DNA from: Pelagovum sp. HNIBRBA483
GTDB taxonomy: Bacteria; Pseudomonadota; Alphaproteobacteria; Rhodobacterales; Rhodobacteraceae
Direction: 5' to 3'
Assembly: GCF_040931995.1 (NCBI RefSeq)
Contig: NZ_CP162412.1
Span: 1,922,001-1,986,000, forward strand
Length of the DNA stretch: 64,000 nucleotides
Position 1 is the first letter of the stretch. Each line of letters begins with the position of its first letter. Below, in pieces: positions 33,639 through 40,718 of the stretch. The notes under the pieces were generated by a model that saw only the letters and a program-made list of their open reading frames with translations, was not told the DNA's origin and did not search any database. The position numbers and the translations under genes were made by a program.

Positions 33639-34862
33639 TTAGGGATCAAACCGGAAAAGCACCCCAAGGTCGGCCACATTCGTTCCCGTAGGTCCGGTAA
33701 TCAGCAAATCACCCGCATGCCACAGTGCCTCATAGCTGTCGTTGCACCGAAGAAGGCTGTGAATATCCTGTCCGGACATCTGGATCCGTGTGAGCGTCCC
33801 ACCATCCACCAGCGCTCCGGCTGCATCAGTAGGGCCATCCCGCCCGTCGGTTCCAGCTTGTAGGCAAACCCAATTCCCGCTCCAGCCGCGCCGCTGTGCT
33901 TCCAAGGCGATCCATAAAGCCATCTCCTGATTGCGGCCGCCTTTCCCGTTTCCTCGAAGTTTGACTGTGGTTTCACCGCCCCAAAGCGTAATGCCCCGCT
34001 CAGCTTGATCGCAAACATAGCGCGCCGCATCTTCGACATCGCCTTCAATTGGCGTAGAGATACGAACAGCATTCCCCCCTGCGGCCTCAAGCATGGCCTC
34101 GACGCTCTTGCCATTCGACCCGATCAACTGGTTTACAGCGACAGGAACAGGATCCGGATCTGGTGCGGTTTCCAGGTAGCGCCGCACAGATTCAGGGACC
34201 CTTTCCCAAAGATCGAAACTTTCGAGAAGTTTTCTGGCCCCCAACGGGTTCGAAATAGGCGGCACGGTAGGGCCGCTCGCGATGACCGAGAGATCATCCC
34301 CGATAACATCGGACAGAATCAAGGCGGTCACCTTGGCTGGCGATGCAAGGCGCACCAATCCGCCACCTTTCAAACGTGATATTTGTTGCCGGATCAGATT
34401 CATCTGTCCGATATCAGCGCCAGAAGCGAGAAGAAGGCGGTTCACCTCAGCCTTTTCAGCAAGCGTCACCCCCGCCACCGGCGCGGGTAAAAGTGCCGAT
34501 CCGCCGCCCGACACCAAGACGAGAACCTCCTGTTCGTCACTGACATGCTCAAGTGCTTCAATTACCGTGTGCGCAGCATATTCGCCTTTCGCATCAGGCA
34601 CAGGATGACCAGCAGGCAGAATCGTCGCACCGTCAAGTGCCTCAGCGTTTTCGTAATTGGTCACAACAATGGTTTGCACACCTGGATGCACCGAAAGCGC
34701 CGCCTCCGCCATGCGGCGTGCTGCCTTTCCAATTGCGATAATCAAGCTCGGTTGAACCGCTCGCCTTTCCAGCTCGGTGATAACCGCTTGATATGGGTCA
34801 GCGGCAGCGACGCCGGCCATAAAGAGTCTGCGCGCCTCCGTGCGCGCCTGATCAATATCCAT
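33639..34862 (-). CDS. Glycerate 2-kinase (MOFRL family)
   Basis: 407 residues of the GckA/TtuD family that phosphorylates glycerate to 2-phosphoglycerate, used in serine-cycle and hydroxypyruvate metabolism. N-terminal Rossmann-like domain (LIIAIGKAARRMAEAAL, LVLVSGGGSALL) and C-terminal MOFRL domain (GRNQEMALWIALE, QAGTDGRDGPTDAAGALVD). ATG 34862 has GGGGGAG close upstream. Its promoter region is shared with the divergent imuA. Confidence 0.9.
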   Translation of the reverse strand: MDIDQARTEARRLFMAGVAAADPYQAVITELERRAVQPSLIIAIGKAARRMAEAALSVHPGVQTIVVTNYENAEALDGATILPAGHPVPDAKGEYAAHTVIEALEHVSDEQEVLVLVSGGGSALLPAPVAGVTLAEKAEVNRLLLASGADIGQMNLIRQQISRLKGGGLVRLASPAKVTALILSDVIGDDLSVIASGPTVPPISNPLGARKLLESFDLWERVPESVRRYLETAPDPDPVPVAVNQLIGSNGKSVEAMLEAAGGNAVRISTPIEGDVEDAARYVCDQAERGITLWGGETTVKLRGNGKGGRNQEMALWIALEAQRRGWSGNWVCLQAGTDGRDGPTDAAGALVDGGTLTRIQMSGQDIHSLLRCNDSYEALWHAGDLLITGPTGTNVADLGVLFRFDP

Positions 34863-34947: not shown

Positions 34948-34976
34948 TTGACGCGCATCCTTCAAAAATATAGAAC
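34948..34976 (+). promoter_or_regulatory. Predicted promoter of the imuA-imuB-dnaE2 operon
   Basis: TTGACG at 34948-34953 is a near-consensus -35. At 17 bases comes TAGAAC (34971-34976), overlapped two bases earlier by TATAGA (34969-34974, 15-base spacing). The predicted start of transcription is near 34981-34983, inside the LexA box. Confidence 0.55.
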
Positions 34977-34987
34977 AAAAAGAGAAC
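34973..34987. promoter_or_regulatory. LexA (SOS) box controlling the mutasome operon
   Basis: GAAC-N7-GAAC, the reverse-complement reading of the alphaproteobacterial LexA site GTTC-N7-GTTC, with exact half-sites at 34973-34976 and 34984-34987. It overlaps the predicted -10 box and ends directly before ATG 34988. Confidence 0.85.
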
Positions 34988-35683
34988 ATGGAGATTCTAT
35001 TGAAAAGCGCACCACCGCCCCTCAAAACAAAGCTGGACACTCTGCGCACCCGCTCACGGCGGCTGGAAACACCTACGCAATCACAACCTGCAACCTTGAT
35101 AGAGGTCTTTTCCAGCGCCCCGACAGACGGCGCCGCAACCGGCTTTACCCTTGCCAGCCTCGGCCACATCACAAAACCGGTCCTCTGGATACAAGACCAC
35201 CTAAGCAGGCGCGAATGCGGTCAGCCTTATTTTCACGGCCTTCCATATAAAGACAACGACATTCTATATTTGGAAATATCACGCCCAAAAGATGCGCTAT
35301 GCGCCGCCGAAGAAGGCCTGAGATGCCACTCTCTCGGTGCTGTCATCACGGAAATCTGGGGCAATCCCAACGTTGTTGACTTCACAGCAACCAAACGTCT
35401 CGCCTTACGCGCCGAAGCATCAAGAGTTCCGATCTGGTTCTTGCGACATGCAGCCGAGGCAGACCTCAGCGCGGCCCGCGAGCGTTGGCGCTTATCCTCT
35501 CTCCCAAGTCACCGCCACCCATATGACATGCGCGCCCCGGGCGCTGAAATCTGGAAGGCACACTTATTTCGGGCGCGCTGGCGTCCGACAGGAGAATGGG
35601 TCGCCAGTGTAGAGCAAGGCCGCCTGCACCTCCAACACGCCACCGAACACAACACACATCAGCTTGCGATCAATGCTCTGTAA
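34988..35683 (+). CDS. imuA: SOS mutasome protein ImuA
   Basis: Up to 231 residues; distant RecA-like partner of ImuB and DnaE2 in damage-induced mutagenesis. Recognised by the segments FTLASLGHITKPVLWIQD, EEGLRCHSLGAVITEIWG and the C-terminal FRARWRPTGEWVASVE, and by its place in front of imuB and dnaE2. ATG 34988 abuts the LexA box and has little room for a ribosome site. TTG 35000 has GGAG six bases before it and may be the true start. No Walker A consensus is seen, as is usual for ImuA. Confidence 0.85.
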   Translation: MEILLKSAPPPLKTKLDTLRTRSRRLETPTQSQPATLIEVFSSAPTDGAATGFTLASLGHITKPVLWIQDHLSRRECGQPYFHGLPYKDNDILYLEISRPKDALCAAEEGLRCHSLGAVITEIWGNPNVVDFTATKRLALRAEASRVPIWFLRHAAEADLSAARERWRLSSLPSHRHPYDMRAPGAEIWKAHLFRARWRPTGEWVASVEQGRLHLQHATEHNTHQLAINAL

Positions 35684-35709: not shown

Positions 35710-37308
35710 GTGAAGCGCGAGGACCAGCTGCCGGATCTCGCCCAGCGCCTAAGCCGCCAAACCGCACCACACTCCATTAAAGAACGCAGAATACTCGCCG
35801 TTCACCTCCCGGAATTTGCGATCGAAAGGTGGCAGATATGGTGCGCAAGACACGCAAGCACTCTGCCTGAAGAGTTGCCCGTCGCGTTGGCCGTCGATAC
35901 CGCCCATGGCCCCGTCGTCCACGCGACAAATCGTGCGGCGGCAATAGCGGGTGTTCGTCGCCATGCGCGCATTGTCGATATGCGCGCACTCTGCCCCGAG
36001 CTGAAGGTCGAATATGCCGATACCCTTGGCGATGAAAAACTATTGGAAAACCTAACATTCTGGAGCCGTCAATGGGGGCCGTGGAGCGTTGCAGACGCAC
36101 CCGATGGCCTCTTTTGCGACACCTCAGGCGTGGCACACCTACATGGCGGAGAGGACAGGCTCCTCAGGAATGTCGAAGAACGCTTTTCCAAAATCGGCTT
36201 CCAAACCCAGCTCGCCTTAGCACCAACACCCGGCGCGGCATGGGCCTTGGCACATTACGGCCCAGTCCGCAGCACCGCCACTTCCGCCAACCTTATGCGG
36301 ATGCTGGCCCCTCTCCCCGTCGCGGCACTACGCCTATCGCCCAAAACGGTCACGACGCTTCAACGCCTCGGGCTGAAAACGATTGGAGCGCTGGCGGATG
36401 TACCGCGCATTGCGCTCGCGCGGCGGTTTCGCGATCATGCCGATCCTTCAGACACGCCGCTGCACCGCCTCGATCTCACCCTTGGGAGGCAGGCAGATCC
36501 ACTCAACGCACAAGCCGATCCGATACGTTTCGTTACCACGGAAAATCTCACAGAGCCGGTACTGGACCCCGCGCCCTACCTTCCCGATCTTTGCGAAAAG
36601 TTATGTGTACAACTGGCGCGATCTCAGCATGGGGTACGGCGCCTGCGCTTATCCGCATACCGCACGGACGGCATGGTCGCGACCAGCTTCTTGACCACGG
36701 CACAACCCAGCAACAATCCCGAACACCTGCACAGCCTTCTCCTTGGCAAGCTTGACCACATAGATCCAGGTTTTGGCTTTGATGTTCTCACGCTAACCGC
36801 CGAGAGCACTGAAAATCTCGACATCGTGCAAACACGTCTGGATGGAAATCCCGATGACGGCACCGAACTCGCCCGATTAATTGACCGCCTTGCCGCCCGT
36901 TTCGGCCCAAACAAACTTCAGCGCGTTGCCCTGTCCGGCAGTCACATTCCCGAGCGCGCCGCCAATTGGCACCCAGCACCACAGCAATATGCTTCCCCCC
37001 TTCCCTCGACACAGCGCCGCCCGATACGCATTTTCGCCCCGCCAGAAGAAATTCGTGTGCTTTACGCAGTGCCGGAAGGTCCGCCAGCAAAATTCATCTG
37101 GCGCCGCGTGACGCATCGCGTCATCCGTTTTGCAGGGCCGGAAAGGGTCGCCCCTGAATGGTGGCATGACCGTCCCGGAACCCGCTTGCGTGATTATTAC
37201 CATATCGAAACCGAAACAGGCCGCCGCCTTTGGATTTATCGCAATGGACTGCATGGCGATGGGCGTGGCGGTGAACCATCGTGGTTTTTGCATGGTGTTT
37301 TCGCATGA
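35710..37308 (+). CDS. imuB: Y-family polymerase-like protein ImuB
   Basis: 532 residues of the ImuB branch of Y-family polymerases. The N-terminal strand that normally bears the catalytic Asp reads LAVHLPEFAIERW, so the active-site acid is lost, as in other ImuB proteins that act as adaptors between the clamp and DnaE2. GTG 35710 is chosen: AGGAG lies 8 bases before it and it clears the imuA stop by 26 bases. The conserved C-terminal part (WWHDRPGTRLRDYYHIET) is typical. Second gene of the operon. Confidence 0.92.
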   Translation: MKREDQLPDLAQRLSRQTAPHSIKERRILAVHLPEFAIERWQIWCARHASTLPEELPVALAVDTAHGPVVHATNRAAAIAGVRRHARIVDMRALCPELKVEYADTLGDEKLLENLTFWSRQWGPWSVADAPDGLFCDTSGVAHLHGGEDRLLRNVEERFSKIGFQTQLALAPTPGAAWALAHYGPVRSTATSANLMRMLAPLPVAALRLSPKTVTTLQRLGLKTIGALADVPRIALARRFRDHADPSDTPLHRLDLTLGRQADPLNAQADPIRFVTTENLTEPVLDPAPYLPDLCEKLCVQLARSQHGVRRLRLSAYRTDGMVATSFLTTAQPSNNPEHLHSLLLGKLDHIDPGFGFDVLTLTAESTENLDIVQTRLDGNPDDGTELARLIDRLAARFGPNKLQRVALSGSHIPERAANWHPAPQQYASPLPSTQRRPIRIFAPPEEIRVLYAVPEGPPAKFIWRRVTHRVIRFAGPERVAPEWWHDRPGTRLRDYYHIETETGRRLWIYRNGLHGDGRGGEPSWFLHGVFA

Positions 37309-37388: not shown

Positions 37389-40300
37389 ATGCCGGAAAAC
37401 CTCACTCACAAACCGCGCACATCCTTACCGGAAGGTTATAAATCCGCACCCAACGCGCGTGCTCCATTTGTCGAACTTGGGCTGGCAAGCTGTTTCTCCT
37501 TCCTGCGTGGCGCTTCCGAAGCCGATGAATTGACCCATACAGCAAATGAACTCGGATATGACGCGCTGGGAATTGCCGATCTCAACAGCTTCGCGGGGGT
37601 TGTCCGCTTTCACACCGCCGCACAAAACCTCTCTCTCCGGCCGATCATCGGCACACGGATAAAGCTGATATCCGGAGAGGTATTTCTGGCCTACCCGACC
37701 AATCGCGATGCCTATGGCCGCCTGTCCCACCTGATCTCGAAAGGGCGCCGATACCGGCCAGACGGCAGCTGGCAATCAAAAGGGGAATGCGATCTCACGC
37801 TTGATTTGCTCGCAGCACATTCCGAAGGCAGTATCCTGATCCTCATCCCCGAGGTATCCCTCACAGGTCTGGAGCGCACCCTGCCCAGCCTCTGCGCCGC
37901 CCTGCCACAACTGGCATACATTGCCGCGTGCTGGCACTATCAAGGCAATGATCGCGCCCGCATAAACAGGTTGGATCAGCTAGCCACACAAAACGGGCTT
38001 TCAATCCTCGCGACAAATGACGTTCTCTATCATGCACCGGACCGACGCCCTTTACAGGATGTGATGACGTGTATCCGCGAAAAGGCGCACCTCGCAGATG
38101 CGGGGCGCCTCCTTCTCCCCAATGCGGAACGTCATCTTAAAGCACCCGCAGAAATGCAAAGGCTCTTCGCGGAATGGCCGCACGCGATCAGGGCAACCCG
38201 CATCGTTGCGGATCAATGTCGCTTTGACCTCCGCGAACTCGCCTATGAATACCCCCGTGAAGTGGTGCCGGAAGGCATGACACCGCAAACCCGCCTTGAA
38301 CAGCTCACATGGTCCGGCGCCGAAACCCGCTACCCTGACGGCATCCCTACGGAGACACAAAATACCCTGAAAAAAGAGCTTTCCATGATCAAAAAGCTCA
38401 ATATCGCCCAATATTTCCTTACAATTCACGATATCATCCGCTTTGCGCGAGAGGATTGCACCCCACCAATCCTTTGTCAGGGTCGTGGTTCTGCCGCAAA
38501 CTCGGCCGTCTGTTACGTCTTGGGCATTACATCCGTCGACCCTGCAAAACATCAGCTGTTGTTCGAACGCTTCATCAGCGAAGAACGCAAAGAACCCCCG
38601 GACATTGATGTCGATTTCGAACATGAGCGCCGCGAAGAGGTCATCCAACACATTTACCAGAAATACGGACGGGATCGCGCTGGCCTTTGCGCAACCGTGA
38701 TCCATTATCGCCCACGCTCCGCCATCCGCGAAGTGGGCAAGGTGATGGGTCTGTCGGAGGATGTCACAAGCGCGCTGGCCAAAACAGTCTGGGGTAGTTG
38801 GGAAAGCGACCTCGACAACGACCAAGCCAAAGAAGCCGGCGTCAATCTGCATGATCCACACCTCCGCAAGGTTCTCCATATCGCCCGCCAACTTATCGGC
38901 ATGCCGCGCCATCTCGGGCAGCATGTCGGCGGCTTCATCCTGACCGAACGCCGCCTGAGCGAAACTGTCCCCATCGGCAACGGCGCGATGGCCGATCGTT
39001 CCTTCATCGAATGGGACAAGGACGATATCGACGCCCTCGGCATTTTGAAGGTCGATATCCTCGCCTTGGGAATGCTCACCTGCATCCGCAAATGTTTCGA
39101 TCTGATCGACGCCCATTATGGTCGCCGGTACACACTCGCCAGCGTGCCTCAAGACGACGCCCGCGTTTACGAAATGCTCTGCCGCGGCGACAGTATCGGC
39201 GTGTTCCAAGTGGAAAGCCGCGCGCAGATCAATATGCTTCCCCGTCTCAGGCCGCGCGAATTCTACGATCTGGTCATCGAAGTCGCCATTGTACGCCCCG
39301 GCCCCATTCAGGGGGATATGGTGCATCCATACCTCCGCCGCCGAAACGGAGAAGAGGCCGTCGAATACCCATCGCCCACTCCGCCTAATGACCCAGCAGA
39401 GCTTAAAAACATTCTCAGCCGCACACTCGGCGTTCCGATCTTTCAGGAACAAGCGATGAAAATCGCGATTGATGCAGCGCAATTCTCCCCCGCAGAAGCC
39501 AATGAATTACGCAAGGCAATGGCGACCTTTCGCTCCAAAGGCACAATTGGCCGCCTAGAGGAAAAAATGGTCACACGCATGACAGCACGCGGTTACGAGG
39601 AGGATTTCGCCACACGATGCTTCAATCAGATCAAAGGTTTCGGAGAATACGGCTTCCCCGAAAGCCATGCCGCAAGCTTTGCACATCTGGTCTACGTTTC
39701 CAGTTGGCTCAAATGTCACTACCCCGCGGCCTTCACATGCGCCCTTCTCAACTCCCAACCGATGGGCTTTTATGCCCCCGCGCAACTGGTCCGCGATGCA
39801 CGCGAACACGGCGTCCAGGTCCGGCCTATAGATGTCAATTTCTCGCAATGGGACAGCACACTCGAACCGGCTTCCCTGCGCAGTGACCACGGTACCGAAC
39901 CGCATGGACCGGAAACGTTACCACCCCCACCCACCTACGCATTACGCCTCGGCTTTCGCCAAATTACCGGGTTCCGCAAAGAGAGCGCAGACAAACTGCT
40001 TTCCACCCGCACATCCCCCTTTCCGGACGTGGAAACACTGCACCGACAAAGCCGCCTGAGTGCCGCCCCCATCCGCAAACTCGCCGAAGCGGATGCCATG
40101 CGCTCCATGTTCATCGACCGCCGCCAAGCTCTATGGGAGGCCCGCGCCCTCAAGGACGCCCCCGCCCTGCCACTCTTTAATGAAACCGCCGATGAAGGAG
40201 CGGAAATTCCCGTACCCCTGCCCGAAATGCCGGTCTGCGAACAGGTGGTCAACGATTACCAAACCATGCGCCTCTCCCTAAAAGCGCATCCCATGACGTT

Positions 40301-40718
40301 TTTCCGATCAAGCCTCCACGAACAAAACGCCACCACCTGCGCAAACTTACAGAACAGTCGAAACGGACAACAAATCACACTTGCAGGCTTGGTCCTGATC
40401 CGCCAGCGACCCGGCAGCGCAAAGGGTGTTTGCTTCATAACCATCGAGGATGAAACCGGTGTCGCCAATATTGTCGTCTGGCCGCAAACGATGAAGGCCT
40501 ACCGCAGCGTCGTCATGCAGGCGCGACTGCTTCTTGTACAAGGGCGCATCCAAAGGGATGTCGACATTATTCACGTCATCGCCGACCGCCTGGAAGACCG
40601 GTCCGACCGCCTTCTTGCCCTCTCGAAAGATCGCGAGTTGCAAAGTACGCCCGCAGCCGCGTCTCACGGCCACCCACGAAACAACAGGATCATCCCCCAT
40701 AGCCGTGACTTCCACTAA
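37389..40718 (+). CDS. dnaE2: Error-prone DNA polymerase DnaE2 (ImuC)
   Basis: 1109-residue C-family polymerase for translesion synthesis. Order: PHP domain (VELGLASCFSFLRGASEADEL), polymerase core with catalytic PDIDVDFEHERR and QGRGSAANSAVCYVLGI, helix-hairpin-helix region (LRLGFRQITGFRKESA) and an OB-fold (LAGLVLIRQRPGSAKGV). AGGAG stands 8 bases before ATG 37389. It lies 80 bases after imuB in the same direction. ImuA, ImuB and DnaE2 together form the mutasome used in bacteria without PolV. Confidence 0.95.
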   Translation: MPENLTHKPRTSLPEGYKSAPNARAPFVELGLASCFSFLRGASEADELTHTANELGYDALGIADLNSFAGVVRFHTAAQNLSLRPIIGTRIKLISGEVFLAYPTNRDAYGRLSHLISKGRRYRPDGSWQSKGECDLTLDLLAAHSEGSILILIPEVSLTGLERTLPSLCAALPQLAYIAACWHYQGNDRARINRLDQLATQNGLSILATNDVLYHAPDRRPLQDVMTCIREKAHLADAGRLLLPNAERHLKAPAEMQRLFAEWPHAIRATRIVADQCRFDLRELAYEYPREVVPEGMTPQTRLEQLTWSGAETRYPDGIPTETQNTLKKELSMIKKLNIAQYFLTIHDIIRFAREDCTPPILCQGRGSAANSAVCYVLGITSVDPAKHQLLFERFISEERKEPPDIDVDFEHERREEVIQHIYQKYGRDRAGLCATVIHYRPRSAIREVGKVMGLSEDVTSALAKTVWGSWESDLDNDQAKEAGVNLHDPHLRKVLHIARQLIGMPRHLGQHVGGFILTERRLSETVPIGNGAMADRSFIEWDKDDIDALGILKVDILALGMLTCIRKCFDLIDAHYGRRYTLASVPQDDARVYEMLCRGDSIGVFQVESRAQINMLPRLRPREFYDLVIEVAIVRPGPIQGDMVHPYLRRRNGEEAVEYPSPTPPNDPAELKNILSRTLGVPIFQEQAMKIAIDAAQFSPAEANELRKAMATFRSKGTIGRLEEKMVTRMTARGYEEDFATRCFNQIKGFGEYGFPESHAASFAHLVYVSSWLKCHYPAAFTCALLNSQPMGFYAPAQLVRDAREHGVQVRPIDVNFSQWDSTLEPASLRSDHGTEPHGPETLPPPPTYALRLGFRQITGFRKESADKLLSTRTSPFPDVETLHRQSRLSAAPIRKLAEADAMRSMFIDRRQALWEARALKDAPALPLFNETADEGAEIPVPLPEMPVCEQVVNDYQTMRLSLKAHPMTFFRSSLHEQNATTCANLQNSRNGQQITLAGLVLIRQRPGSAKGVCFITIEDETGVANIVVWPQTMKAYRSVVMQARLLLVQGRIQRDVDIIHVIADRLEDRSDRLLALSKDRELQSTPAAASHGHPRNNRIIPHSRDFH

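Follow-up and report, generated by a model that had tools for sequence, protein, structure and literature searches.

A probable TTG start codon for imuA behind a promoter overlapped by a predicted LexA operator in Pelagovum sp. HNIBRBA483

The imuA-imuB-dnaE2 cassette of the alphaproteobacteria is described as persistently regulated by LexA wherever it is present (PMC3323433), and both the GTTCN7GTTC box and the control of the cassette by LexA are given as established in the class in the portions of the literature drawn on here (PMC3323433, PMC12700426, PMC3901139). On the distance between the 5' end of an mRNA and its start codon, the portion of the Sinorhizobium transcription start map used here sets the minimum leader of a start with a Shine-Dalgarno (SD) sequence at 14 nt, defines leaderless transcripts as those transcribed from the AUG itself, and records 171 transcription starts of leaderless mRNAs in S. 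meliloti (PMC3616915). The combination of imuA, LexA and leaderless is represented in the literature searched by one Deinococcus paper, in whose accessible text the word “leaderless” occurs in the reference list only (PMC8072749); the titles and abstract openings of related work mention no mapped imuA start in the family Rhodobacteraceae, and the portion of PMC6473078 drawn on here makes no mention of imuA. The locus described below shares with the LexA-regulated cassette its gene order and the direct repeat GAACN7GAAC (equivalent to GTTCN7GTTC) laid over the promoter.

The window, which is the whole stretch of 64,000 nucleotides that was analysed (contig NZ_CP162412.1, positions 1,922,001 to 1,986,000), contains an imuA-imuB-dnaE2 cassette at 34988/35000-40718, divergent from a glycerate 2-kinase-like gene (Table 1). 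The first gene is identified as an imuA homologue by tblastn matches to plasmid genes labelled “ImuA family protein” (for example H15, 5e-10), and it is adjoined by imuB and dnaE2 as its downstream neighbours. Its best named matches lie in Rhodobacteraceae and kin, such as Marivivens, Loktanella and Paracoccus. The product finds no match among Pfam profiles and scores 29.5 bits (E 6.2e-7) against the NCBIfam ImuA equivalog NF033429, under the curated cut-off of 150, so that on its sequence it is classed as a divergent homologue outside that equivalog. The cassette as a whole is an ordinary one of the SOS type, with a misplaced longest-ORF start. The longest-ORF starts of two neighbouring genes are also worth recording: that of imuB, ATG 35596, falls within imuA, and GTG 35710 with its AGGAG is the likelier start, while that of the glycerate kinase-like gene on the minus strand, ATG 34958, extends beyond the imuA -35 region, and ATG 34862, preceded by GGGGGGAG, is the more likely choice.

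Table 1. Features of the imuA promoter region and the surrounding genes, in window coordinates.
Feature	Position	Strand	Remarks
Glycerate 2-kinase-like gene	33639..34862	-	Pfam DUF4147 and MOFRL
Probable -35 element TTGACG	34948..34953	+	TTGAC conserved at 36/58 orthologous loci
Probable -10 element TAGAAC	34971..34976	+	overlaps left LexA half-site; TA before box 44/58; spacer 17
LexA box (predicted operator) GAACAAAAAGAGAAC	34973..34987	+	GAACN7GAAC; kept at 58/58 distinct orthologous loci
Inferred 17-nt leader	34983..34999	+	predicted transcription start ~34983, from promoter geometry
First in-frame ATG, probably not the start	34988..34990	+	ACG in L010; in-frame ATG here at 1/58 loci
Shine-Dalgarno GGAG	34990..34993	+	six bases (34994-34999) before TTG 35000; conserved in L010
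imuA from the proposed TTG start	35000..35683	+	227 aa; 231 aa if from ATG 34988
imuB	35710..37308	+	GTG start with AGGAG; Pfam IMS and DUF6504 above cut-off
dnaE2 (imuC)	37389..40718	+	NCBIfam NF004225 error-prone DNA polymerase, 1424.6 bits, cut-off 939

The bare pattern GAACN7GAAC does not by itself distinguish the box from chance. The window contains four copies against 2.27 expected, a count that is reached by 17 of 100 shuffles, and the genome contains 84 against 124 for a control pattern read backwards; significance drawn from the pattern alone was accordingly rejected, since it is enriched in neither. What sets the box above chance is its conservation in place, because the pattern stands immediately ahead of imuA at every one of the distinct orthologous loci. 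The conservation extends beyond the half-sites: 56 of 57 counted loci have A directly after the first GAAC, and TA lies immediately 5' of the box in most of the set.

A simple promoter scan of this region returned no sigma-70 site; it misses TAGAAC because it demands a second hexamer that ends in T, and conservation was therefore used to judge the promoter. An exact TTGAC spaced 16-18 from TA-GAAC is present at 36 of the 58 loci (27 of them at a spacing of 17) and missing in 22, compared with a mean of 0.146 and a maximum of 2 in 500 shuffles, which preserve base composition only, while the relatives themselves are non-independent. The predicted start of transcription lies 17 nt from TTG 35000 and 5 nt from ATG 34988. 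The same genome encodes lexA (TIGR00498) and recA (TIGR02012), both above cut-off, with boxes 48 and 50 nt ahead of the first in-frame ATG. With the box, the TA and the TTGAC conserved, and with lexA and recA also carrying boxes, the box is most likely a LexA operator that overlaps the -10 region of the core promoter, to which LexA is predicted to bind. An effect of RNA structure at the start was considered separately and rejected (fold z-score +0.44).

A cluster of GAAC/GTTC half-sites was also observed outside the window, at L091:1321-1499 (G000:C1:1696820-1696998), behind a gene read by eye as recG. After 18 nt it is followed by a 40-aa open frame (MAKDIKRAIFRSKST...) that has AGGAGG ahead of it. 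Among 61 genomes of the family, 18 have a match to this frame, its own among them, and a recG-like gene is present at 17 of these 18 loci, the exception being L146. All 17 realigned loci (L139 excluded) carry GTTCN7GTTC or GAACN7GAAC within 130 nt upstream, as do 4.4% of random 130-mers. Neither Pfam nor NCBIfam gave a match for the two members compared with them; as a guess, the frame may encode a small membrane peptide induced in the SOS response.

TTG usually ranks last in strength among the three common start codons, and the potential of each candidate imuA start for ribosome binding was evaluated as the energy of its SD duplex. A typed pattern for the 3' end of 16S rRNA had one exact match in the genome that contains the window, with CACCTCCTTTCT, and no match in the draft genome G001. 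The duplex for TTG 35000 has an energy of -7.5 kcal/mol, which is equalled or bettered by 9% of 3000 random 20-mers from the window; that for ATG 34988 has -2.9 kcal/mol, and 58% of random 20-mers do as well. The corresponding values for the downstream genes are -7.3 kcal/mol at imuB GTG 35710 and -9.4 kcal/mol at dnaE2. The elements described by the earlier note are all present in the arrangement it gave, with a box that ends at 34987 directly before an ATG at 34988, a promoter with a 17-base spacer (TTGACG-17-TAGAAC at 34948-34976), and GGAG six bases ahead of TTG 35000.

The comparison within the genus rests on one further genome, L010, whose ImuA is 73% identical. It aligns without an indel from the -35 element into imuA, in the layout GAACAAAAGGTGAAC-ACGGAGAACGAA-GTG, so that GAACAAAAGGTGAAC ACG GAG AAC GAA GTG stands opposite GAACAAAAAGAGAAC ATG GAG ATT CTA TTG in the window: the abutting ATG is replaced by ACG, GGAG is kept, and TTG 35000, which lies in frame twelve bases past the box, becomes GTG. 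One residue is kept in the four codons before TTG 35000 and 11 in the 20 after it, a difference that is weak by itself. L010 has a further in-frame GTG within the box, which is unlikely to be used because it is located at the predicted start of transcription. In six further relatives the codon homologous to TTG 35000 is ATG. Alignment of the ImuA N-termini, which the earlier note had proposed as a check, gives the same result: eight of nine near N-termini (window, L010, L011, L012, L018, L123, L124, L125) align by eye without gaps from the TTG 35000 codon, with the shared pattern M-x-S-A-P/L-P-x-P/L-K-T/S, and the ninth, L015, aligns with them in no clear way. An in-frame stop separates the box from the ATG in L011, L012, L123, L124 and L125, and a start upstream of the stop is therefore impossible in those five loci. 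The suggestion that TTG 35000 is the real imuA start is consequently backed by the GTG of L010, by the kept GGAG and by the six relatives with ATG, while the other option offered alongside it, a nearly leaderless imuA at ATG 34988, goes unsupported, that ATG being ACG in L010.

The wider comparison of box-to-start spacing was based on 60 loci, made up of the best 48 of 106 matches, eight others, L010 and three more, with the 58 weaker matches (E of 6.4e-9 or higher) and those outside the family but within the class left out; the removal of L013 and L024 as duplicates gave the 58 distinct loci, window included. The window alone has an in-frame ATG that abuts the box; L028 has an abutting ATG that is out of frame. 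An in-frame start is found 10-39 nt past the box in 57 of the 58 loci (36 ATG, 16 GTG and 5 TTG), a figure that describes rather than proves, because the rule applied, which takes the nearest start no closer than 9 nt to the box, was the analysts' own. In 13 loci the frame is interrupted by a stop between box and start, and 14, the window included, have an in-frame start codon less than 9 nt from the box. In L051 an ATG lies 4 nt past the box and the next in-frame start only at 61 nt. In two named relatives the annotation places the imuA start at 14 and 15 nt from the box, in one case skipping an in-frame ATG at 2 nt. L041, L042, L048 and L049 each carry two in-frame ATGs, one 2 nt and the other 14 nt beyond the LexA box, and for L127, a named locus of similar build, the annotation takes the ATG at 14 nt. 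An ATG beside the box is easily acquired, because A follows the box in 54 of 57 counted loci and in 35 the next two bases begin with AT.

The reading that best accommodates these observations, and that is very probably correct as far as sequence comparison can establish it, is that translation of imuA, the first gene of the imuA-imuB-dnaE2 operon, is initiated at TTG 35000, led by an SD sequence, on a transcript from a promoter covered by LexA. RNA polymerase would recognise TTGACG/TAGAAC; LexA, if bound to GAACAAAAAGAGAAC, would cover the -10 element and the start point and keep transcription off until DNA is damaged; with LexA removed, the mRNA would begin within the right half-site at about 34983; and the GGAG in the short leader would set the ribosome on TTG 35000. 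ATG 34988 would then be an in-frame ATG, absent from the sister genome, with only some 5 nt separating it from the predicted 5' end of the mRNA. If imuA does start at TTG 35000, its leader is short but ordinary, and the result is mainly a correction of annotation, where “annotated” refers to the earliest start codon in the open frame.

That imuA instead begins at ATG 34988, on a nearly leaderless mRNA (a leader of about 5 nt) translated by 70S ribosomes or through weak 30S initiation, is very improbable. No start codon precedes it in the open frame, alphaproteobacteria do have leaderless mRNAs, as the S. meliloti data cited above indicate (PMC3616915), and in-frame ATGs occur at 2 nt in L041, L042, L048 and L049 and at 4 nt in L051. 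The first four of these loci, however, also have the ATG at the site annotated in L127, the in-frame ATG that abuts the box is confined to one locus of the 58 and is ACG in L010, its SD energy is no better than that of the median 20-mer, and a 5-nt leader matches neither the SD-led class (at least 14 nt) nor the leaderless class as these are given in the part of the Sinorhizobium map used here (PMC3616915). The use of both codons, which share a reading frame uninterrupted by a stop and would yield two forms of ImuA four residues apart, is even harder to credit, given that L010 shares only one of the four extra residues and has no start codon at the place of the ATG. Least probable of all is an upstream promoter whose longer mRNA would supply ATG 34988 with a normal leader: the 125 nt between this ATG and the likely start of the divergent gene would accommodate one, but in 36 of 58 loci the TTGAC-TA-GAAC core shares bases with the box, and the SD pairing at ATG 34988 would still be no better than the median.

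What is new here, and well supported by the comparison, is a correction of the start site together with a measured box-to-start spacing for one family; the biology is ordinary. A start at TTG 35000 would set the likely N-terminus of ImuA four residues further in, and reporters or expression constructs for ImuA would use this codon; the first start codon of a frame may turn out to be a codon of the leader. In many imuA promoters of the family the operator, the -10 element and the predicted transcription start coincide. The predicted imuA leaders across the family are about 15-44 nt, with the right half-site of the operator as the predicted mRNA 5' end, and GTG or TTG accounts for 21 of the 57 starts that the 9-nt rule selects. 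On a speculative and rather unlikely reading, the LexA operator would form part of the imuA mRNA throughout the family, and the very short leaders and frequent weak start codons would keep translation of this first mutagenesis gene low by design, with the start codon at liberty to drift within one genus (ACG/ATG, GTG/TTG).

Compared with the LexA-regulated alphaproteobacterial cassette, the window differs in nothing of kind, and its box-to-start distance of 12 nt is close to the lower limit of the 10-39 nt spanned by the examined loci. It would resemble the leaderless mRNAs of S. meliloti, as these are characterised in the portion of PMC3616915 drawn on here, only if ATG 34988 were used, which would place the start codon near the predicted end of the mRNA; unlike those mRNAs, the window is one in which comparison favours an SD-led start 17 nt into the predicted transcript.
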